Assembly: GCA_020796225.1 (NCBI GenBank)
Contig: CM036775.1
Coordinates: 3,628,393-3,692,392, forward strand
Length of the DNA stretch: 64,000 nucleotides
Reading direction: 5' to 3'
DNA from: Arion vulgaris
Lineage: Eukaryota; Mollusca; Gastropoda; Stylommatophora; Arionidae
Shown: in pieces, positions 24,801 to 63,484 of the stretch
Numbering within the stretch: position 1 is the stretch's first letter
Layout of the letters: the number at the start of each line of letters is the position of its first letter
The notes under the pieces: model-generated
The model's input: the letters and a program-made list of their open reading frames with translations, nothing else
Told to the model about the DNA's origin: nothing
Database searches by the model: none
Translations under genes and position numbers: made by a program

Positions 24801-27447
24801 TAAGTGTGGTGTAGCTTGACAAGAACGCTATACTGGCAGACAAAGAAGAATTGTAAACCAACAAAGAACTAGTGTCGTTAGTCACCACACACTGATGGAC
24901 ATACTGAGGGAGAGATCGGAGCACTTATGGACTAATTTGTTCGATGTGCAGTAATGGTGATCCGACGACTAAACTAAACTAAACATCCAGAGAACCGGAC
25001 TCATTGTGTAGACATTGAACAAGAGTGAATTAGAAGAAGACTACCTCTACTGTTACTACTGACTATTGCTTTTACTACTTCAGCTACTGCATACTATTAC
25101 TACTTTACTACTACTTATTACTTACTGGGTCTATGTGGTTAAGCCTCCCCTTGCATTCTGAAGATCATGGGTTTGAAGCTGTGATGTTTTGTTCACAAGT
25201 GAAATTTTCTATAGACCCGTTGTTACCAGAACTAAGGAGTTCATGTTTTGTGCAATACTCGCAGCAGGTGATGTGCCATTGTCCATTGCTCTCATGCTTT
25301 TACAGCAGCCATTTATGCAAAGCGATCAGGTTCATTTCCTGTACCGCCCGTGTGGTGCAGAGGCCCATGGGAAGCAAATAATAGTACCACTGCAACCTGC
25401 ATGCATGTCGTAAGAGGCGACTGATGTAGGCCCTAGGGGTGCTACCCTAGTAAATAAAAAACAGCACAGAAATCAGATGTGCTGGCCTACTTGTAGCCGC
25501 ATAACTGGCACAACGTACAATCGCTCTTAGACTCAGATCACATACAAATCACACAGAGTGGTTGACAAGTGGTCGGATGTGGAGCGTTCGAAGATTTTCC
25601 CTTACACCTGCATGCCCTGACACAAAAATAAAACAAATTTTTGTCAGCCTAGACATCTTCAGCGACTCCAACCATTGTCTCCTAGCCCAGCATGTTTCAA
25701 TCTTCCTGAGCATACTCATTGTTACTGAAAAAACATGCAAGGATAAAAGTCTGTGACTCCATCCAGAACATCGCTTTAGTTGCTGCTATGATTTCCATTC
25801 TTTACTGGGTTCAATGTCTTTTCATAGTTTACAGTCCAATTTTTGATGCTATAGATGACAAGTTAGATTTTTATTTTTTTTTACTTTGCATATTGATTGT
25901 TATTGAGATACTGCTAAAAACTAAAGCAAATCTTATCAAAATGATTTTCTGGCCAACATTATGTTACCAGTGTCAAACATGGCAAATAACAGCAGCTAAT
26001 GGGCGGAAAATCATAACAACAGAGATATGTCTTAGAAGAGCTGCTGCCGAGTGGTTACTGGGGCCCAAATTTGGGGTGTAAAGAATAGAACCACTGTTAC
26101 CTGCCTGCATGTCGTAGGAGGTGACTAAGGAGGTTTGGCTGAAATCAGATGCATGTGTCCTAAGCGTGTAGAAGTCTATGCGTTTAGGGGCCTACAAACC
26201 AATGTGCAACGTATACACGTTCTTGGCACAGATCAAACATATCTAAAATAGTGATTGGTCGTAAAGAACGACGTGAAAAGAAGATCTGCAGGTGTGACAA
26301 TAAGAGACAAAATTAGAAATAAAGAAATCAGAAGGAGACTGGATGTGAAACCAGTTATGCACTTCATAAAAGAACAGATTGAATGGTTTGGACACCTGAC
26401 AAGAATGCCCTGGTATTGCCTACCACAGAGAGCCACACAGAAAAAATATAACGAGTACAGATCAAGAGGAAGCCCACACAAAATATGGGCGACAGCATCA
26501 GGAAAAAGCCTTACGAAAATGAATATCAGCTTACAAAGTACCTTAAAACAAGCACACACAAGATCACAAGATTGCGCCCTCCCCCAACACTACTATAAAG
26601 AAGTAAATGGTGGGAGAGAAGAAGATATTGAGTGTTTGTGCTTGTTTTTACTTAACAAGACAATTCATTCATCAAATAGCTTGTCCTGAGCAGAACTTTG
26701 CCACCCCAACAGTCCTCCAGAACTTCTCTCTCCCATAGCCCAGATTTCCTGCTTCTGCAACCATCATGTTCAGACCATCAGTTACATCCTGAATCCATCT
26801 TCTCCGTGGTCTTCCTCTTCTTTTCTTTGCCGGTATGCCTCCTTCCATGATGGTCTTCCCAGCCCTTCTTGTCTTTTTATATGTCCTTAATATCTCGATT
26901 TTCTCTTTTGTATTTGTTGCATCAGCCAGTTTTCTTTGATTTTGAGTGCTTTCTGGATAGATCTATTTGTTCTCTTCTCTGTCCAAGATATATGGAGGAC
27001 TCTTCTATAAAACTTATATTCGAAAGCACATATATGTAACAAGACAATATCATCTGTCAAATATATATATATATTGATTCTTTGTGTAATCCATATACTG
27101 TTTATATATTGCAGCTTATTATTCCTAGAGCAACTGGAAGACCAATAAACGAGGAGAATGTGACCAGTCCCGGGGAAGTGGCTCAAGTAGTGAAAAATCT
27201 TGAATCCTACTTCCTGAAGAATGGCCTTTATATTGGAGGTGATGAGTTGACCATTGCAGATCTTCTTGGAACCTGTGAACTGACGCAGTTATTTGCTTGC
27301 CATGAGCATGACCTGTATGAAAAGTCACCAGTAGTTAAGGCGTGGATAGAGAGAGTCAGACAGGAAACTAACCCATACTTTGACGAGGCACATAAAATGG
27401 TAGTCAGAACACATGATGTTTATAAACAAATTTCAGCCAAATTATAG
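18704..27447 (+). CDS. GSTT: Theta-class glutathione S-transferase, four exons, with a phase conflict between exons 1 and 2
   Basis: Conjugates glutathione to electrophiles, probably in the cytosol. Exons are 18704-18815, 20471-20556, 22437-22590 and 27115-27447. Exon 1 opens the thioredoxin-like domain with YYFDLLSQPSRSIYIFLR; Ser11 sits where the theta-class catalytic serine is. Exon 2 gives INPFGLVPVIEDDNFQLTE and exon 3 SIAILKYIIRKYDLPDHWFP, both parts of the glutathione site. Exon 4 carries most of the helical C-terminal domain (GGDELTIADLLGTCELTQL) and ends QISAKL. Exon order and lengths parallel vertebrate GSTT (exon 2 is normally 88 nt, with phase 1 in and 2 out). Here exon 2 measured from its canonical AG is 86 nt, so exons 1 and 2 do not join in frame. 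Either 2 nt are missing (pseudogene or assembly error) or an unusual acceptor is used. The gene lies head-to-head with PPIP5K. Confidence 0.88.
18820..19552. other. GSTT intron 1, mostly AT-rich, with a Penelope-type relic
   Basis: 19195-19460 holds two pieces (AAGTGCTGTAGTTTTAAAAA and GCTTGATAAATTCATTTTGG) like the ends at 42480-42580. Otherwise nothing recognised. Confidence 0.5.
19553..19960 (+). mobile_element. SINE-C copy in GSTT intron 1
   Basis: Best copy: head GGGTCTCTGTTGCATACAGG to CTCGTTCCAAAGG, then GATCCCTGATCTCAGTGTAG, and a 3' end reading CACACATGGCTACTCAG. Confidence 0.8.
19969..20390 (+). mobile_element. Non-LTR RNase H C-terminal fragment
   Basis: FTWIYCPGHAGVCGNERADR, then GDVLRFLRGCLLDEDT: the last RNase H motif and following region of an I/Jockey-like polyprotein. 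Ends 80 bp before GSTT exon 2. Confidence 0.82.
20471..20556 (+). CDS. GSTT: GSTT exon 2
   Basis: The homologous frame reads RLQKINPFGLVPVIEDD then NFQLTE, ending in phase 2 at GAAAG|GTAATA. The canonical acceptor TTTGTTCACAG ends at 20470, but from there the frame that joins exon 1 hits a stop after ten codons. The next AG (20482-20483) would restore frame but drop five residues. Confidence 0.85.
20565..20958 (-). mobile_element. SINE-B inserted in another SINE-B
   Basis: Inner copy 20659-20912 (254 bp) with perfect target duplication CAGCACATCC (20649-20658 and 20913-20922). It lies inside an outer 3' SINE-B fragment just behind GSTT exon 2. Confidence 0.88.
21052..21389 (-). mobile_element. 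SINE-A composite copy
   Basis: A second SINE-A tail begins inside (about 21150), giving 338 bp. The whole is flanked by a perfect 12-bp duplication TTTCATCTTGTC (21040-21051 and 21390-21401). Confidence 0.85.
21526..21777 (+). mobile_element. SINE-B copy
   Basis: Complete head, core and GGTCGATATGGAGTGTTCC tail. Confidence 0.82.
21790..22260 (+). mobile_element. Non-LTR tail (second family)
   Basis: LERKKHKGRPLLRYKDVCKS, then NPSKWEKLADDRKRYCARVQ. Matches 57640-57960 (minus). Confidence 0.78.
22437..22590 (+). CDS. GSTT: GSTT exon 3
   Basis: 154 nt: (S)IAILKYIIRKYDLPDHWFP, then ARIEEYLNWHHANTRGLC and TQLFRHL. TES|IAIL is the usual theta junction. Acceptor TCTACTTTCAG, donor TTA|GTAAG, phase 0 out. 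Confidence 0.93.
22642..22892 (-). mobile_element. Repeat J, second copy, behind GSTT exon 3
   Basis: Same sequence as 308-548 with scattered changes. Confidence 0.65.
23385..23930 (+). mobile_element. SINE-E2 split by a non-LTR fragment
   Basis: SINE-E2 parts surround 23417-23632; perfect duplication CCAAGTAGTCC (23406-23416 and 23633-23643). Confidence 0.82.
23417..23632 (-). mobile_element. 5'-truncated non-LTR fragment with a GAAGAAG end
   Basis: On the minus strand it reads AEQTLEHILSCKTVLSWVS (post-RNase H region) and ends CGCTGAAGAAGAAG, the same 3' end as SINE-A, B and G. Confidence 0.75.
23935..24203 (-). pseudogene. Reverse transcriptase palm fragment (FADD box)
   Basis: Minus frame KELLFADDAALVAHSKATLQ, then INNLAKACDLFSLTISVTKT: the catalytic FADD motif and following helix of a non-LTR reverse transcriptase. 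Only about 90 codons remain. Confidence 0.85.
24204..24475 (+). mobile_element. Non-LTR tail with (AAGT)n end
   Basis: Frames RRWKWLGHVMRMRQEMPARI and KGRPRTTW; ends TAAGTAAGTAAGTA. Confidence 0.7.
24505..25045 (+). mobile_element. Non-LTR RNase H and C-terminal fragment
   Basis: SFLFPGHAGVQGNEHADRLA-like stretch in shifting frames; the 3' end is GAATTAGAAGAAGA. Confidence 0.72.
25125..25344 (+). mobile_element. SINE-E head fragment
   Basis: Worn A box (TGTGGTTAAGCCTCC) and GGGTTTGAAGC B-box region, followed by TGTGCAATACTCGCAGCAGG. Confidence 0.65.
25345..25594 (+). mobile_element. SINE-B copy
   Basis: Complete copy between a SINE-E head fragment and a non-LTR RNase H fragment. Confidence 0.83.
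25595..25735 (-). mobile_element. Non-LTR RNase H fragment
   Basis: Minus frame ICFIFVSGHAGVRENLRT, related to 24505-24720. Confidence 0.65.
26047..26285 (+). mobile_element. SINE-A copy
   Basis: Nearly complete copy with a worn tail; no clear target duplication. In GSTT intron 3. Confidence 0.75.
26255..26600 (+). mobile_element. Non-LTR tail in GSTT intron 3
   Basis: RDKIRNKEIRRRLDVKPVMH, then KEQIEWFGHLTRMPWYCLPQ. Confidence 0.75.
27115..27447 (+). CDS. GSTT: GSTT exon 4 (C-terminal domain and stop)
   Basis: 110 codons plus TAG. LIIPRATGRPINEENV, VVKNLESYFLKNGLYIGGDE, LTIADLLGTCELTQL, then NPYFDEAHKMVVRTHDVY. The acceptor ATATATTGCAG is preceded by a TA-rich tract rather than a clean pyrimidine tract. 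The end of this exon is duplicated downstream (see 27567-28095). Confidence 0.93.
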   Translation, partial: LIIPRATGRPINEENVTSPGEVAQVVKNLESYFLKNGLYIGGDELTIADLLGTCELTQLFACHEHDLYEKSPVVKAWIERVRQETNPYFDEAHKMVVRTHDVYKQISAKL

Positions 27448-33838: not shown

Positions 33839-36800
33839 CTGTTTCAAAACAGAATACATAAAATTATGTGCCAACTGGCAATAAAACAGATACAATAATG
33901 CAATGACATATTACAAATTGATATAACTGAGAAATCTGTCAATTAATTCGATGATCATTCTTCTTTTTATGCTCCATATCAACCACTTGTCAACCACTAT
34001 GTGTGATTTGTATGTGATCTGAGTCTAAGAGATTATACGTTGTGCCAGTTATGCACCTACAAGTAGGTCAACACATCCTATTTCTGCGCTGCTTTTTATT
34101 TACTAGGGTAGCATCCCTAGGGCCTACATCAGTCACCTCTTACGATATGCATTGTAGGTTGCAGTGGTACTATTCTTTGCTTCCCTTGTGGGCCCCGGCA
34201 CTACACTGGTGAACTATGACCATTAATTTAGATAAGAGGATAAGATTAATTTCAGCGATGAGGGCCCCGGATGTTTTCTTCTCGTTTACTGATGTTCAAT
34301 GTCTACACAATGAGTCCAGTTCTCTGGATGTATGCTGTTGTGTTTGTTAGTATCAAGGCTTCCAAATAGCTTTGTGTTGATGTTTGTCTCTGTTGGCCAG
34401 TGTTCTTTTCGCAGTTGATTCATCAGGTGACAATCTTGCAGGATGTGTTCAACTGTCTGTCCACATGCACATATGAGTGATCGAACCAGTCTTATTTTAT
34501 GTAGGTGTCTGTTCAGTCTGTTGTGTCCAATTCTGAGTCGAAACACTATCAACTGCCTCGCTCTATCTAGATCATAGATTCCCAAACTTTTTCCGCCCAC
34601 TTTGCACAACATAAACTTTGTAACGCCCTCCACATTATAGCAGGTAACCAACACCCTCCCCACACATATACATGCTATATTTTCTCTTTGACATAGAACA
34701 TTGATATATTTCTGTAATACGTTGTCAATTTTCAAATGATTATATGCTTGAAATAGACAATTTATGAAAAAATAGATCGTGTAAGATGGGCATAAGATGA
34801 ATTAAATAGAGAATTCATATTTTAAATGATTATTCAATCGCAAAATCAGGAAAATAATTTATTTTAAAATATTTATTATTAATTTCTTCTTTAAGGAGCC
34901 ACTGACACCTAATCGCCTTAAATTCTTCTTAACCCACTATCGCCCCCTTAGAACGCTTCAGCGCCACGAAAGGGAGGGGATCACCATTTGGGAAACGCTG
35001 ATCTAGATAGTGGTAATTATCTCTTTACTGGCCTTCTTTTCTAATGGCCTTGATGAGTGTTTTCTTTTCCTGGAATATGATGATATGATTCTTTTGTTCC
35101 TGTGTTGCTCCCTTAGTTCCTCCTTCCTTTCGTTTGCTTGAAATATTGTCTATATATTCAATGTTGTCTCTGTATCCTTCCTTCCTTTCGTTAGCTTGAA
35201 ATATTGTCTATATATTCAATGTTGTCTCTTGTATGAACTTCACTGTCTTTTGTCGCTCACATAGAAGTTGTGTAGTTTTCTGTTGAGTGTTGTTTCATTA
35301 GGCCAGTGAGTTTGCCTCAGTTTGTCATATTTGGGGCAGTCTTGAAGTATGTGCTCTGCAGTCTGATGTGCCTGTCCACATGGCTGAATTGCCAATCTTG
35401 AATTTTGTATAATGTGGCTGAGGAGTTTTTTTTTTCTGTTTTTTTTTCTTTGCCCGCTTTCAACTCAGACGAAGTTTCATCTCTGAAACTGATTTTTGCG
35501 TGAAATCTGTTTTTCCAATTTCTTACAATGGCAGCAGCGTGTACATTGTAAATTACTTTACACTGGCAGCTGTGTGCTCAATGTACTCGTAATTAGTATT
35601 CCTCGCCATACAGGCAGATTTTCTCCGACTTCAGAGGTACTCACGTTATCGTCCTGAGTAAGACCAGGGACTCGAACAAATGCCGGACAGTAGGTTCGAA
35701 CTTGAGCTATGAGGCGTCTCACAGCTAGCAGGCCGAGCTACTATCAACTACTCTAGGCAGTCCCCTGGCTGAGGAGTCGATTGTGTCCTGTGCTAAGGCG
35801 CAGAATGACAACATGTTCCAATCTGCTCATATTATAGTAATCGTCTTGTGTTGGTATTTGTGGCTTTGCTCCCTCCTTAGTTAATTTGTCTGCTCTGGTC
35901 CCTGATGTCTTCTTCTTCTTCACGTTCGTTCTTTATGACCAATTTTAATCACTCCTTGTGATAGGTTTGATCTTTGCCAAGAACGTGTATACGTTGCACA
36001 TTGGTTTGGTAGGCCCCTCTCTTCTTCTTTGCGTTCGTTCTTTATGACCAATTTTAATCACTCTTTGTGATATGTTTGATCTTTGCCAAGAACGTGTATA
36101 CGTTGCACATTGGTTTGGTAGGCCCCTAAACACATAGACTTCTACATGTTTAGGACACATGCATCCAATTTCAGCCAACCCTCCTTAGTGCCTTTACGAC
36201 ATGCGTGGCTAGTAACAGTGGTTCTTTTCTTTACACCCCAAATTTGGACCCCGGTAACCACTTGGGTGTGGTCCCTGATGTAATTTTGGATATGGTAAAA
36301 ATTTGTGCAGGAATTTAAAAATATTTTTAATGAATTGTGCATGGGCAGCAGATTTGCAGTCTACTCTACATGAAACCTACATTTTATCATCAATCACCAA
36401 TAGGACGAGGAACTTGATCTCACCCATATTGAGATCAGGAATCTCGGGGAAAAAAAATATCCAGAGCGTTTCATGTGAGCCTCTTACTTCAACGCCACAA
36501 AGTGTCACATAAAAAAAAAAACTGTACTTACTGACTGTTATTCCGCTTTATAGGTGAGTAAAAGGGGGGAAGTGTGCCTGTGGAATTTAATGGTTGCATG
36601 GCTAGTGCACATTCGTTGCGAAACTGATCAGGTTCTGATTTTTCTTTATGCCCTCAACCAAAAAAACTCCTTGGCCGTACCGTGGTTGATCTCCCACATG
36701 GGAGCTGTGCTCTAATCCATTTAGCCAGATACAAAGGGTCCCATATATTTCCCTAACTCCTTGCGGACCAAAAGTCACACTACGTGGCTTTGGGTTGGAT

Positions 36801-42753: not shown

Positions 42754-42911
42754 TGAATACATGCAACATATACCCATATAGATTACAAAGCATGGGAAGA
42801 GAAAGTACTAAGAAGCATAAGAATGTAATATAACATGAATACATGCAACATATACCCATATAGATTACAAAGCATGGGAAGAGAAAGTACTAAGAAGCAT
42901 AAGAATGTAAT
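42754..42911. repeat. 82-bp direct duplication
   Basis: TGAATACATGCAACATATAC to AAGCATAAGAATGTAAT occurs twice almost unchanged. Confidence 0.88.
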
Positions 42912-43297
42912 ACGTTGAGCCCGCGTGGTCGCAAGGTACCATACAAAGAAATCAACCGATTCTCCAGAGCAAATCGACTTCGATCATCCGAGGAACATGA
43001 TCGGATGGCTGTTACCTGGACATCGTGAGCTCCTAAATGGCCAGTATCATTGAAATGGGTGGCTACAGGGGTCACAGAGCATTGGCGTATGTCGCGTAAG
43101 TGTTGGGCGAATCGGTCACTGAGCCTCTTGCCTGTCTCGCCGATATAAGCCTTGTTACACCGCTTACAGATAATGGCATAGATAAGATTACGGGACTCGC
43201 ATGTGAACCCATCGTCAATAAGAAACGTGCCTAAAGGAAAGATACAGTACGCGTCTGTATGACATAAGCACAAGTGTTGCAACGCCGACGGCCACAC
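42890..43297 (-). pseudogene. Penelope GIY-YIG endonuclease domain
   Basis: LIYAIICKRCNKAYIGETGK is the GIY-YIG core (…IYAIIC…AYIGET), followed by RLSDRFAQHLRDI and later FALENRLISLYGTL (the metal-binding Glu region). The Cys pair CGRRRCNTC upstream is in another frame, so at least two frameshifts separate it from 43463-43681. Stop at 42890. Confidence 0.88.
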
Positions 43298-43462
43298 TGG
43301 ACAGTGCCAAAATGAGTCTGGATATTGGACTTAAGGCGACTGTGTACCAACATATCCTTAAGACTTCTGTCCCGTCTGTAAGACACCAAAGGATAGTTGG
43401 GGAAGACAGAACGGTCTCAGGATCTGATCTAAGGATAGACAGATGACGGAATAAAACATTTT

Positions 43463-44842: not shown

Positions 44843-45340
44843 TCACGATGTCAGCTCTGTCCATTGGCTGGTCCTCTGATATAGCGGCAGAGCCAGCCAG
44901 TCTGTCTGCTTTCTCATTGCCAACGACACCCATGTGCCCCGGAACAAAGACAAGTGTAATTCTGCAAATTGTTGAGCCTGCAGTGTTTCAGTCCATTGCC
45001 TTCGCACCGAACCGGCCTCCACCTTTCGGATCATACTCAATGAGTCACTCAGAATGCACGCATGAGTGTAGTTTTGTGATTCTAGCCAGAGTAGTGCATT
45101 GGTCACCGCCAGTACCTCCATTGTTATACTGCTTGTTGTCATACTAAATGCACCACTGACTTCCTTGACCATTCTGCCACATGAGCTTGCAGAGAAGGCC
45201 CATGCAGATTTTTCGTGACGAACTACCGATCCATCCGTGTAAATCACAACGTTGTCTGCATTGCAGTTTTCATCGATAATGGCTTTGACGTCTGCTGTAG
45301 ACGCCTGTAGTGATTTAGTTCATTTCCTGCGCACCGAATC
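44843..45340 (-). pseudogene. RNase H domain of a non-LTR retrotransposon
   Basis: Minus frame: VIYTDGSVVRHEKSAWAFSA (first Asp), SITMEVLAVTNALLWLE (Glu), CILSDSLSMIRKVEAG (second Asp). The last His/Asp motif (GHxGVxGNExAD) is frameshifted. I/Jockey-like. Confidence 0.87.
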
Positions 45341-45370
45341 AGACTCCAGCTTTCGGATCATGAGTCACTC

Positions 45371-45627
45371 TTCTTCTTCTTCTTCTTTGTGTTCGTTCTT
45401 TACGACCAATTGTAATCACTCTTTGTGATATGTTTGATCTTTGCCAAGAACGTGTATACGTTGCACATTGGTTTGGTAGACCCTAAACGCATAGACTTCT
45501 ATACGTTTAGGACACATGCATCCGATTTCAGCCAAACCTCCTTAGATGCCTCTTACGACATGCATGGCAGGTAACAGTGGTTCTATTCTTTACACCCCAA
45601 ATTTGGACCCCGGTAACCACTCGGGCG
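45371..45627 (-). mobile_element. SINE-A copy inserted in a non-LTR RNase H fragment
   Basis: 257 bp with a perfect 11-bp target duplication ATGAGTCACTC (45360-45370 and 45628-45638). Confidence 0.92.
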
Positions 45628-45680
45628 ATGAGTCACTCAAAATGCACGCATGAGTGTCGTTTTGTGACTCCGGTCAAAGT

Positions 45681-46461
45681 CGAAGCAGGACTTTTTGGCG
45701 CCGCCGTTTTGGCGCGACCGTTTTGGCGCTGGATTTTTTGGCGCAGAGCCGTTTTGGCGCAGAGCCGTTTTGGCGCGACCGTTTTGGCGCCATTTAAAAA
45801 TAACTTCATATTTAACTTAATAACGTTTATAAATAACTGTTTTCAATAAATTATAAATTTTTAATAAATCCAATGCAATGCAAAATATATCAATTAAAAA
45901 CGTTTAACGAATACTGTTAAATATTTTACTTTTAGCCAATGCAAATAATCAACTTATAAAACTTGAATAAAGTTTAACGAATCTTGTCCAATATTTTACC
46001 TTTAATAAGTTTTCCGAAAGTCCGTGTTTTTAATGCATCAAAAAATTATGCGCAAGTGACAGGATTTCTGACATTTGCGATGGACAAGATGTGACATGCA
46101 CATAACACCAAATACTATTACGTAAGTAAACAGGTCAAGCTATTAACATTTGGAAGGGGCAGGATTTCTGACATTTGCGATGGACAAGATGTGACACTCA
46201 GTCGGTCAGCGTGTCAATTCTCGATCATCTCAAATGAAACGGCTGATGATATAATTCAGACACCTGGCATTTGTTCCAATAAACGCTGATGTATAAGTAT
46301 ATTGTTTCATTAGAGTTAATATACATGTACACTAAAAATTAAAATAATATTAAGGTTATTGAAATTTATTGAGGAATTTGTGCGCCAAAACGTCCTGCGC
46401 CAAAACGTCCTGCGCCAAAACGTCCTGCGCCAAAACGGCGGCGCCAAAACGTCACGTACCG
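45681..46461. mobile_element. Foldback-type (Mutator-like) non-autonomous transposon
   Basis: 781 bp flanked by a perfect 9-bp duplication GGTCAAAGT (45672-45680 and 46462-46470). The ends are inverted and share TTTTGGCGCCGCCGTTTTGG; behind each end TTTTGGCGC repeats in a 15-17-bp tandem array (about seven copies left, five right). AT-rich centre with a 37-bp direct repeat (46060-46096 and 46160-46196). No transposase frame. Confidence 0.87.
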
Positions 46462-46470
46462 GGTCAAAGT

Positions 46471-49656: not shown

Positions 49657-52600
49657 GTCAGTAGTATTTTAATATATTTCATATACTTAACACATTTCTA
49701 ATGATAATTGTTATTGTTGTATTATTGATATAAGTTTTAGCTATAGATTAGAGGTATTTGATGAAGAAAGTATTTGTTGAGATGGTAATAATGCATTTTT
49801 TTCACTCGCTTTCATAAAGTTACCAATTGTCGAGTATTCAACACTACAGTATTTTGTGTCACGTTTGACAACAGTACATTACAAGGAGAGCCTTTCAAAG
49901 CATGAGGACATAAAACTTGAACGTTACTGTAATCCTTAATACTATCGTATTGTTAGCCGGTCTATAAAAGTGGCGTTGTTACAAAAGCTAATGAATGAAA
50001 TATTGACATTATCATCATGTGTTAGGACCAATGCAGGTTGTTTTTTCATTAATTAATTATGAACGTTGAATTGAAAAACTACTATGTGATCTTCTTCTTT
50101 GCGTTCGTTCTTTACGACCAATTTTAATCACTCTTTGTGATATGTTTGATCTTTGCCAAGAACGTGTATACGTTGCACATTGGTTTGGTAGGCCCCTAAA
50201 CGCATAGATTTCTACCAGTTTAGGACATGTGCATCCGATTTCAGCCAAACCTCCTTTGTCGCCTCTTACGACATGCATGGCAGGTAACAGTGGTTCTATT
50301 CTTTACACCCCAAATTTGGGCCCCGGTAACCACTCGTGCGCTAGTATGTGATAATTGGAGCCTTCCAGTGGGAGCGGAATGGAATAAGAGAAACATACAG
50401 CGGAAATAAAGTATTGAATCACCCATTAAACTTTTTACCAGTCTTATATATCTTTTCAGTTATAGTAACTTGTAGAGATCCTCTCTTGGTATTTAATTAT
50501 TCATCTATAAACAAGTCTTTGTGTGCATATCAACCAGAGCTTAAACCATTCTTTTGGGTCTGTATGTGAGTTGCGCCATAGAGTGAGAGTTAGTTGGGAC
50601 AATTGGGTGTCTAGGTTAGCACACCGGTTTCCATGCTTTTATTTGACAGGAGCCTATTTCATGCAGGGATCCTGACCTAGGAGCCTTTTCGTTCAGCTGT
50701 TGCTCAATGTCTACACAATGAGTTTTGCTCTCTGAATGGTTTCAAACAACTTTGCATGGATGCTCTGTTGGCCAGTGTTCTTTCTTGAGGTCTGTATGCA
50801 GGGGACACTGATAATAAGGAAAGCACATGCAAAAATCAGTCAGAAGCGTCATACCAGGCACCCTGAATTTATAGTCGAAGAACCAGACAGTTAATAAATA
50901 TATTCTGTTAGTTTTTGTCATGGTTCTAAGTCTGGAGAGTGTACAGCCACAGGTAACCAGTGTTCCTTCAAGACTTTGTAGCATCCAGAACTCTGAACTG
51001 CATATACTTGGTTGAAAGTTTTCATTAGCAGTTCTATTTTTGGGCGCTCTGTCTATCCCAGCTGACCATATCACAGTTTTAACCCCTGTTGAGGCATAGG
51101 CCCTAAAGATTAGTGGGATTTTGTGGTTAAGATTTTTACAGGATGTAAAACCCAACATCAACGGACTAAACCCTCCCTGACTGCTTCACCATGAAGCCTG
51201 GCGGAGAAAGCATGAACTAAAGCATTTTTAGGTCAGTTTCTCTCCACTTATTTGTAAATTTAGTCTTAATTATTGTCTCTCATCCACTGTTTGTATTATT
51301 TTATGGTTGTAGTATTTATATTCGTTTCTTGGGTAGCAAAGAATTGAGCAGCCATCTCCTCTTGTGTGTCATGAGATGTTGGGGTTAGCAAACCTACATT
51401 TTAAAAACCAAAGACCCTAACTGCCCATCAAAATTTGAAGTTTCTTGTCTCTTTTTGTTACACTCTAGGCACAATGGAATAATATATATATGCGTGGAAT
51501 GAATTGGTGCAGTGCATAGGATATTAACTTTTTTTAATAGAACAAGATGGTCGTTTGTTTAATTCACACATCGGACATTCTACAAAGTGATAAAAGAATT
51601 GGCCAGCATATTGGGAATTTGAAATGGGGATGGATAGCATTTCCCACTGTACATTTTGCAAAGTCTGCATATAATTTTATGATATTGTGAACTGTGTACA
51701 AGGGATATTTTTATGAGGTAGAATAATTGATTTGTTTGTTTTTAACAGAGGCTGCCCCAAAGGAAGAAAAGAAGGAAGCAGCCCCTGCTAAGGCTGCTGC
51801 TCCTGCAAAGGCCGCAGCTCCAGCTAAGGCTGCTGCACCAGCAAAGGCTGCAGCTCCAGCTAAATCGGCCCATGCCAAATCTGCTGCTCCACCCAAAGTG
51901 GACTCTGGCGTAGTCAAAGCCAAAGAAAAGGCATTGAGGGCAAAGAAGTCTGTATTCCGGGGAACTCACGACAAAAAGAACCGTAAAATCAGAACTTCAG
52001 TGCACTTCCGTCGACCAAAGACTTTGAAACTACCAAGAGCTCCCAAATATCCACGCAAGAGTGTTAACAAAACCAATAAGTAAGTTCTTTTATTTATATT
52101 TAAAGTATATTTAACCCTTTAGTCCCAGACAATTAAATTTCTAGGGCAAGGAAAATAACTCACCGAGAAGATAACTTGTAACTTTCATAAGTTACAAGGC
52201 TAAAGAAATAAACATTGGTAGAAAATCTCCACTACCTTGTGGGCCGGCACAGTTATTCAGAAGGGTAGAAGAGTCTTGACCACAAATTTGGAGTTGATGG
52301 TTAGGTATATCCCATTTCATCTTCCAACATTCCCTGGTTGATGTACAGGCTGTCTTTCCTTTGGATGAAGGCAGATCAGAGAGGGGGTATGAGCAAAATA
52401 TATTGTATGTGTAAGCTTCTCCGACTAGGTAAGAAACATGGATACACCATCCATGCTGCTCTGACAAAATACGGAAAGTCACTGTATCCTAAATGGTAGG
52501 AGGCTGCTTTCAGTGGTTGGAGTACATATTCCGCTGCGTTGGACATCTACCTGCATAAAGGGTGCGTAGGAATAAACTAAAACTTTAAAAATGCGGATGT

Positions 52601-58347: not shown

Positions 58348-59650
58348 CGAGGTGAAGTCAATAAGTAAGCCACAAAGTTATGTGAGATGGTAGGTAAATG
58401 TAGTTGGTGTTTTCTAAAAGTGTCATTAGGTGACAGCAACATCAAACTTTATATTTCCGTTCGCCAGGTGACGCTATGTGTCTCATGCGCAGCGCATAAA
58501 CAAAATGGCGACTGTACTTACGGAGAGTACAACCAAAGAGCAACGTGCTGTTGTGCGTTTTTGTGGGCAAAATGACTGCCTACAAAGGACATTCATAAGG
58601 AAATGCTTCCTGTTTATGCTGACAAATGTTTGTTCCGTAAAACGGTGCATAGTTGGGTAGAAAAATTTTCTCAATGACGCTCTAAAATTGTTGATGAAAT
58701 CCGATCTGGTTGTCCTGTTGAGATTGCAACAGAAGCAGCGGGTGGAGGAGATGATTAGAGGTGACAGACGAGTAACGATAGACTCTGTAGCATCTGCAAT
58801 AGGGTGCTCACATAGTACTGCATGATCGATTGCAATTTAAGAAAGTGTGCTCAAGGTGGGTACCCAGACAATTGAAAGAGGAACAAAAAATGAACCGATT
58901 TGACCTGTTCTTTACATCATCTCTGTCGATACGAAGATGAAGGAGAAGAGATGCTGAACAGGATTGTTGCTGGGGATGAATTATGGGTGCATCACTACCA
59001 GCCCGAATCAAAGCGTGCTTCAATGCAGTGGAAACATCCTTTTTCGCCTTGTGTCCAAAAATTCAAGGTTACGCCATCAGCAAGGAAGGTTATGTTGACG
59101 GTGTTCTGGGATTGTCAGGGAGTGCTTTTAACCAATTTCATGAAGAAAGGTGACAATGTGAATTCCGAATCGTACTGTGAAGTTCTATCGATGTTTCATG
59201 ATGCAATTCGAAAAAACGTCCAGGGTTGCTGACTAGAGGAGTGTTGCTTCTTCATGACAATGCCAGACCACATACGGCTCGATTAACTCAGGAGAAAATT
59301 AACCAACTAAGGTGGGAAGTTCTGGAACATCCACCTTACAGTCCCTACTTAGCCCCTAGCTATTTCCACCTCTTTGGTCCACTGAAAACCCACCTTGGCG
59401 GAGACATTTCGTGAATGACGCCGAAGTTGAATGTGAAGTGAAAACGTGGTTTAGAAAACAGAGCCCGCAGTTCTATGCAGCCGGTTTGGGAGGATTGATA
59501 AAACAATGGGATAAGTTCATCAATGTTGGTGGAAATTATGTTGAGAAATAAAGGAACAATGTATGTATAAAAATAAACTGGTTTCAAGTTGTTATCATGT
59601 TTAGTTATTTTTCTACAGCCATTTGTGGCTTACTTATTGACTTCCCCTCG
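58348..59650 (+). mobile_element. mariner transposon, inactivated
   Basis: 1303 bp between TA dinucleotides (58346-58347 and 59651-59652). Inverted ends CGAGGTGAAGTCAATAAGTA / CGAGGGGAAGTCAATAAGTA, about 28 bp. Contains one frameshifted transposase gene in plus orientation. Confidence 0.92.
58505..59560 (+). pseudogene. mariner transposase, frameshifted, third catalytic Asp lost
   Basis: Starts MATVLTESTTKEQRAVVRF, then shifts frame. Catalytic blocks: AGDELWVHHYQPESKRASMQ (first Asp), GVLLLHDNARPHTARL (second Asp), YSPYLAPSYFHLFGPLKTHL, where mariner normally has LAPSD; the third Asp is Tyr. Breaks near 58560, 58900 and 59230 split the frame. Confidence 0.88.
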
Positions 59651-62182: not shown

Positions 62183-63484
62183 CAGAGCCGGATTAGCCTA
62201 GTAGCAGAAGTAGCAAATGCTACGGGCCCCGCGCTTCTAGGGGGCCCCGTGCCTATGTGACAAATGAAAATGGAAAAAATTACCAGATGTTATATCAAAA
62301 ACACGCAAGCTGTCTGAATTTTTAAATGTCGTGTGTGATGCAGCTGAATCCAACGAAATCGAATCAGAAAATACAGAAGACGTGTCTCACGGTATAGTAG
62401 ATGAAGGCAGTGCTATAGAAGAATCATCATTACCAATATTACCATTAAGATCAGCAACTCTTCACGATTTAGCCACATTTTCCACAAGACAAACTGAAAT
62501 CAAATGTACAGCAAGTCCTCCCAATTTAGCCATATCATCTTCAAGCCAAAGAGAGGCAGAAAGCACAGCACGTGCTTCTAATGTAAAACATCATCTATAA
62601 GCCAAAAACACAACGAAAGTAAAATTTACTCCCAAAGATATTGGTGAATGGTAAAACAACTTCAATCGAGATTATTGGATTGTGAAAGAAAGTAGGAAGT
62701 GCAACATATGAACAGTGATTTCATGTCTTAAACAAAAAAAAACAAAAACATACGATAAAGAAAACAATCCACGATTTTGTCGAAAATCGTTTTTCACATA
62801 CACGCATACACCAACAAACAAAACTCACGTGAGAGATTGGTTTTGTTATACAGAAACTAAAGGACAACTGTTCTGTTTTGTTTGCAAAGTTATTGATTTA
62901 GGCTGTACCATAGAGTGACTGGTGTATTTGGAATACTTCGGCAGTTAAAATCTATTACAGCAGAAGAGATCTTGAAAAGAACTCCAAATAATGTCAGCTC
63001 TTACCAAGAGGATTTGGAAGAAAGCCTAGGCGACGAACTTATGCAGTTCACTGAACTTATTAAAATTAATGTAGCTGCTGCTATTAGAAATGAAAAGCAT
63101 GAGGCTCTTGAACTGCAATTTTATAAACTTATAATGGAAAATTCATTAGAGTCGTGTTTCCCAAATGTAGAAATAGTCTTACGAATTTACTTGTCTTTAA
63201 TGATTACTAACTGCAGCGGAGAACGTTCTTTTTCAACATTAAAGTGTATAAAAAGTGAGTTAAGAAACATGATGGGACAAGATCGTCTAAATAACCTCAC
63301 CTTAATGAACATTGAATGTATTTTACTTAGAGAAATTGATTTGTCTAGTATTATCTCTAAATTTGCTCACATTAAATAGAGACAAGTTTGTTTGTAAAAG
63401 TTGTGTTTATTTTATTATCATACAAAACCTAGGGCCCCGCGCTAAAATTTGCTACGGGCCCCGCGCTAGCCTAATCCGGCACTG
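62183..63484 (+). mobile_element. hAT transposon, internally deleted
   Basis: 1302 bp, perfect 8-bp target duplication CTCTTCGA (62175-62182 and 63485-63492). Ends CAGAGCCGGATTAGCC / CAGTGCCGGATTAGGC; GGGCCCCGCGC subterminal repeats at both sides. Confidence 0.92.
62331..63379 (+). pseudogene. hAT (ZMYM1-like) transposase remnant
   Basis: Three pieces: an N-terminal acidic leader (62331-62600), a zinc-binding piece RDWFCYTETKGQLFCFVCKV (62830-62900) and the C-terminal dimerisation domain (62915-63379; MITNCSGERSFSTLKCIKSE and LNNLTLMNIECILL). The central catalytic domain is missing, so it cannot transpose itself. Confidence 0.85.

Follow-up and report, generated by a model that had tools for sequence, protein, structure and literature searches.

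What kind of sequence interrupts a LINE-like coding stretch in the gastropod Arion vulgaris, and what might the short words repeated at its two ends do? The window, the whole 64-kb stretch of DNA that was analysed, holds both the interrupted copy and an uninterrupted one, and the features that define the insertion are as follows.

45672-45680, no strand: left target site duplication GGTCAAAGT, identical at 9 of 9 positions to 46462-46470
45681-46461, no strand: whole element, 781 bp, non-coding, defined by the duplication, the empty-site alignment and frame lengths
46462-46470, no strand: right target site duplication GGTCAAAGT, identical at 9 of 9 positions to 45672-45680
45040-45140, no strand: element-free paralogue of the insertion site, within a LINE-like RNase H coding stretch on the minus strand, defined by alignment and Pfam

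The 781 bp at 45681-46461 lie between perfect 9-bp duplications. When the two flanks were joined with one copy of the duplication, the resulting sequence aligned to 45040-45140 without a gap, with 80 of 101 positions identical (E = 5e-20). This empty-site paralogue is contained in a minus-strand open frame at 44843-45316, which has a Pfam match to RNase_H (E = 2.6e-7) and matches three proteins; the two that are named are both from Arion vulgaris, one at 68% identity across 41% of the query and the other at 82% across 38%. Because the paralogue aligns ungapped across the junction, both the element boundaries and the 9-bp duplication can be trusted, and we conclude that a LINE-like copy was the insertion target and that 9 bp of it were duplicated. 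At random positions spaced 781 bp apart in the window, a 9-mer shared within a comparable range was found in 110 of 20,000 trials; the 9-bp duplication is unusual by itself and is decisive together with the empty site. The first-pass annotation had proposed both this duplication and a paralogous pre-insertion site at 45058-45140. The identity of the two 9-mers and the ungapped alignment bear out the duplication and the paralogy, while the aligned span proved longer, at 45040-45140.

Other segments of the window gave protein family matches of their own. Two plus-strand frames, one at 62897-63376 with a match to the hAT dimerisation region (E = 5.5e-10) and one at 58894-59229 with a match to mariner-type Transposase_1 (E = 1.6e-16), are remnants of other DNA transposons, and a minus-strand frame at 42893-43330 that matches the GIY-YIG nuclease (E = 4.1e-7) is, we presume, perhaps part of a Penelope-like element. 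Two further plus-strand matches are likely host exons, one to the N-terminal region of ribosomal protein L23, with AAPAK repeats (51727-52080, E = 8.3e-24), and one to the C-terminal region of glutathione S-transferase (27040-27444, E = 6.9e-6).

Within the element, we distinguished two terminal stretches, two arrays of an exact 9-bp word, TTTTGGCGC, and a centre that contains a direct repeat.

45681-45692, plus strand: left terminal stretch CGAAGCAGGACT, whose outer 8 bp match the opposite end at 3 of 8 positions
45693-45790, plus strand: left array, seven exact TTTTGGCGC words
45791-46380, no strand: AT-rich centre, GC 0.29
46054-46096, plus strand: first copy of a 43-nt direct repeat, 95% identical to the second copy, 100 bp apart
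46154-46196, plus strand: second copy of the 43-nt direct repeat, 95% identical to the first
46382-46449, minus strand: right array, five exact TTTTGGCGC words
46450-46461, minus strand: right terminal stretch CGGTACGTGACG (minus-strand sequence)

The seven plus-strand words start between 45693 and 45782 and the five minus-strand words between 46382 and 46441, so the arrays at the two ends point inward in opposite orientation, as the first-pass annotation had described. Outside the element, TTTTGGCGC has zero copies in the 64-kb window, for which base composition predicts 0.34 copies and 50 first-order Markov sequences gave a mean of 0.38 and a maximum of 2. The three-unit pattern matched the window 8 times, compared to 0 times in 100 shuffles. 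About 30 GC-rich 9-mers are commoner in the window than TTTTGGCGC, and we judged most of these to derive from a short interspersed repeat; TTTTGGCGC is special by its confinement and arrangement rather than by its abundance. We also observed that a stretch of about 48 bp at 45580-45628 (GTTCTATTCTTTACACCCC...), which recurs at 22 other places in the window on both strands with 84 to 98% identity, resembles the tail of a short interspersed repeat with many copies. A 109-bp tandem duplication at 35911-36127 has a unit that resembles 45370-45490, upstream of the element, and that probably represents the head of this interspersed repeat.

The linkers between successive words are variable and 5 to 7 bp long. 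In order, those of the left array are CGCCG, GACCG, TGGATT, AGAGCCG, AGAGCCG, and GACCG, and those of the right array, from the outside in, are CGCCG, AGGACG, AGGACG, and AGGACG. Units are therefore spaced 14, 14, 15, 16, 16, and 14 bp apart on the left and 15, 15, 15, and 14 bp apart on the right, a range of 14 to 16 bp that replaces the 15 to 17 bp given previously. Across the 12 units, all 9 core columns have zero entropy and all 8 flanking columns are variable, a contrast that is descriptive only, since the 9-bp core was delimited by its own invariance. No damaged TTTTGGCGC words were found inside either array. The two ends form a 35-bp inverted repeat that matches at 29 of 35 positions, with 3 of 8 in the outer 8 bp and 26 of 27 at positions 9 to 35. 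The first two units of the array fall inside this inverted repeat, which amends the earlier description of 35-bp inverted repeats followed by tandem copies. The right array contains three identical units. The inner units are unlike between the two ends, so the left and right arrays seem to have expanded independently.

The GC content is 0.61 in the left array and 0.62 in the right array, compared to 0.29 in the centre and 0.41 in the window, in agreement with the contrast between GC-rich arrays and an AT-rich centre that had been noted before. The calculated single-strand folding energy of the element was -146.3 kcal/mol, versus a mean of -88.1 (standard deviation, 4.4) for 20 shuffles, and in this model a single strand could fold back through both arrays. 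The ratio of observed to expected CpG was 1.66 in the element, 1.21 in the centre, and 0.62 in the window. The TTTTGGCGC words contribute CpG themselves, yet the ratio is also 1.21 in the centre, and the high CpG of the element may reflect a young or unmethylated insertion. The longest stop-to-stop frame within the element has 64 codons, with no transposase in the element, and a search of Rfam returned 0 matches.

Because of the 9-bp duplication, the composite inverted-repeat ends, the lack of coding capacity, and the empty-site paralogue, we read the element as what is probably a non-autonomous cut-and-paste DNA transposon of the Mutator-like (MULE) superfamily, with type-2 Foldback ends whose arrays are putative transposase docking sites. 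Membership in the MULEs is the best-supported assignment and rests on anatomy and duplication length. Published accounts of MULEs give a duplication of 8 to 11 bp, usually 9, and the element has a 9-bp duplication with 9 of 9 identity and an empty site; its inverted ends consist of a terminal motif and tandem subterminal repeats, the arrangement that defines type-2 Foldback ends. Among the papers listed by topic searches of the literature, none pointed to a named family with a TTTTGGCGC unit, and the element appears to represent an undescribed foldback family, known here from one copy. The word itself occurs in 367 papers, and the titles of the 40 that were listed suggest that most contain it as part of a primer. 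The Phantom group, whose transposases combine a FLYWCH-type finger with a MULE domain, has no mollusc on its host list in the table of a MULE survey. Foldback elements have been little studied in molluscs, to which this element would add a family with cleanly defined ends.

Two other accounts of the locus concern its class. Foldback-like ends have arisen in more than one superfamily, as the description of Galileo in the P superfamily illustrates, and an element of the P (Galileo-like), hAT, or Merlin type could have arrived at the same anatomy by convergence. We regard such an origin as improbable, since the element has a 9-bp duplication, whereas those of hAT and P elements are 8 bp and 7 to 8 bp long, respectively, and since one survey reported Merlin, within the molluscs that it covered, almost only from cephalopods, whereas the host is a gastropod. 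Far less credible is the proposal that there is no transposon unit at all and that two inverted minisatellites grew by hairpin-driven replication errors beside a chance 9-bp repeat. The strong hairpin potential (-146.3 versus -88.1 kcal/mol) and the three identical right-array units would suit such growth, but the element-free paralogue aligns through the junction without a gap and contains exactly one copy of the duplication, and a chance 9-mer in range is as rare as the random trials above indicate.

A further alternative keeps the transposon and changes the meaning of its words, which might mainly be host E2F/DP sites that link the element, or the transposase gene of its autonomous parent, with S phase or open chromatin. 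All 12 words hold TTTGGCGC, which fits the published E2F consensus TTTSSCGC perfectly, 12 of the 14 TTTSSCGC sites in the window lie inside the element, and plant MITEs with amplified E2F sites, MULE ones included, have been described. However, for a GC-rich word this short, a chance match to some transcription factor is to be expected, and the TTTTGGCGC words are located where transposase sites would lie. We gave this possibility low weight, as an unlikely one, because E2F was chosen after the word had been seen and because the element carries no gene that such sites could drive. An extended form, quite doubtful in our judgment, would posit a widespread animal MULE family with ends of perfect E2F sites, in which the transposase and a host cell-cycle factor would both read the word, transposition, or competition for E2F between sister copies, would be coupled to S phase, and the host genome would gain a dozen E2F sites with each insertion. 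If the words did act as E2F sites, the element would give an animal example of mobile DNA that spreads cell-cycle control sites.

For a MULE with docking arrays, the reading that we prefer, TTTTGGCGC would most likely be the recognition site for a zinc-finger-type domain of a transposase supplied in trans by an autonomous relative. Galileo ends contain multiple THAP sites, and on that model the repetition of the word at both ends would provide avidity, specificity, and end pairing. The outermost bases would be cut by the catalytic domain. Slippage or recombination could alter the number of units, which would explain the presence of seven on one side and five on the other. An invariant 9-bp word on variable linkers would predict the transposase site to base level. 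The element would also allow a direct trial of the idea that the tandem repeats of Foldback and Phantom elements are transposase binding sites (PMC3688188).

Array-like sequences were also sought outside the host. Seven stretches of viral contigs that matched the three-unit pattern were judged unrelated because none had arrays on both strands; in one of them (L006), the single opposite-strand word is 1.8 kb distant. Two stretches that matched in a collection of genome contigs were, by eye, coding repeats. A 24-bp piece of the centre had 0 matches in the viral contigs, and a comparison of the element with phages gave no match.

For public proteins, the queries were frame translations of the arrays, one with a single frame and then one string of several frames. 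The single-frame query returned 1 protein (E = 6.3) among 5 candidates. The multiframe query returned 15 proteins at E <= 10 among 1,571 candidates, with 2 of the 15 at E <= 1e-3; the best matches were P0004 (4.7e-9), P0005 (8.1e-6), and P0006 (1.1e-3), and the others were weaker. By eye, the 15 proteins alternate FWR, VLA, and FGA, which are three readings of TTTTGGCGC, with changing linkers. The word was present in all three reading frames in 12 of the 15 proteins, and its count exceeded that of all 500 shuffles in 14, the sole exception being P0014, with a count of 3 and a shuffle maximum of 3. Because these proteins were chosen by their similarity to the arrays, the frame counts support, but do not prove, that they derive from DNA arrays.

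Two proteins with weak matches to the array query, P0010 (E = 0.13) and P0014 (E = 0.49), have the tails AEFGMDHPTIWKFIDGI and AKFGMDHPNIWKFIDGI, respectively, which are alike at 15 of 17 residues, compared to at most 8 in 300 shuffle pairs. The common tail lies 38 residues after the array in P0010, where it is preceded by RTNNHVEAAHRKF, and 47 residues after it in P0014. We take the tail to resemble the region of MULE transposases around and after the catalytic glutamate, and a possible link to a transposase through these two proteins is a lead. Pfam scans of full proteins, which covered 10 of the 15, found 0 families in P0010 or P0014; when the two tails were scanned alone, one gave an unrelated subthreshold TPR match (E = 0.087) and the other none. 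The tails had only chance-level matches in the 64-kb window (E = 3.5). In the viral contigs, P0010 gave 19 pattern matches, of which 0 were confirmed, P0014 gave no match, and a degenerate HP(N/T)IWKFI pattern gave 0 matches. In P0015, the array adjoins a reverse transcriptase, so a gene that neighbours an array need not be the mover and may be an insertion target.

The element shares single traits with several known systems. The E2F-site-bearing MITEs of Brassicaceae, as described, are also mobile elements that multiply E2F motifs, but their hosts are plants, whereas the words considered here are candidate E2F sites that form terminal arrays, 12 per copy. Tetris of Drosophila virilis is likewise a non-autonomous foldback element with tandem repeats in its ends and reported duplications of 8 to 10 bp, but its repeat unit is about 220 bp. 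The ends of Galileo of Drosophila are, like those of the element, internally repetitive and are described as holding several binding sites for a transposase domain; in contrast to the element, Galileo has a P-type transposase, ends of more than 1 kb, and a 7-bp duplication. The tandem repeats of these ends bind the THAP domain of the Galileo transposase, and its authors present transposase binding to Foldback and Phantom repeats as an untested idea (PMC3688188).

The closest parallels are with Muta1 and Muta5 of Aedes aegypti and Tm1 of root-knot nematodes, whose published anatomy the element matches feature by feature, and the first-pass claim of a foldback element related to Mutator-like transposons is upheld by this comparison. 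Muta1 is an active mosquito MULE with target duplications of 8 or 9 bp; its terminal inverted repeats are 145 bp long, and each joins a 10-bp terminal motif to nine 12-bp repeats separated by spacers of 3 to 4 bp. Muta5 has an 8-bp terminal motif and 9 copies of 15 bp. Both are Phantom-group MULEs, which their authors term type-2 Foldback, and 10 of 12 long-ended MULE families in Aedes aegypti are reported to have subterminal tandem repeats of 9 to 15 bp. More than 300 putative non-autonomous derivatives of Muta1 are described, many with shortened arrays and foreign centres, and every natural derivative tested in yeast was mobilised by the Muta1 transposase, the duplications being 8 bp in 21 events and 9 bp in 39. 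The element resembles Muta1 and Muta5 in the 8- to 9-bp range of duplications, the short terminal motif, and the many short repeat copies; in this comparison, which is by anatomy and not by unit sequence, it differs in its unequal ends (7 versus 5 units), its 5- to 7-bp linkers, and the lack of a transposase among our findings.

Tm1 is described as having asymmetric 7-bp terminal motifs, a 3-bp motif, and 13- to 15-bp tandem repeats, with a Phantom-class transposase and duplications of 8 to 10 bp in 45 of 53 complete elements, mostly 9 bp. The element differs from Tm1 in its unit, which is TTTTGGCGC plus a linker, whereas Tm1 units follow the consensus CGATTCAGTATCCGC and Tm1 also has a purine-rich inner motif; that consensus, by which Tm1 membership is defined, is not found in the element. 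In common with Tm1, it has a 9-bp duplication, asymmetric terminal motifs, and short tandem units, and Tm1 also varies in unit number and has MITE-like members. With its short unlike tips, followed by GAC and then by spaced units, the element has the same plan as the ends of the Muta1, Tm1, and Galileo type.
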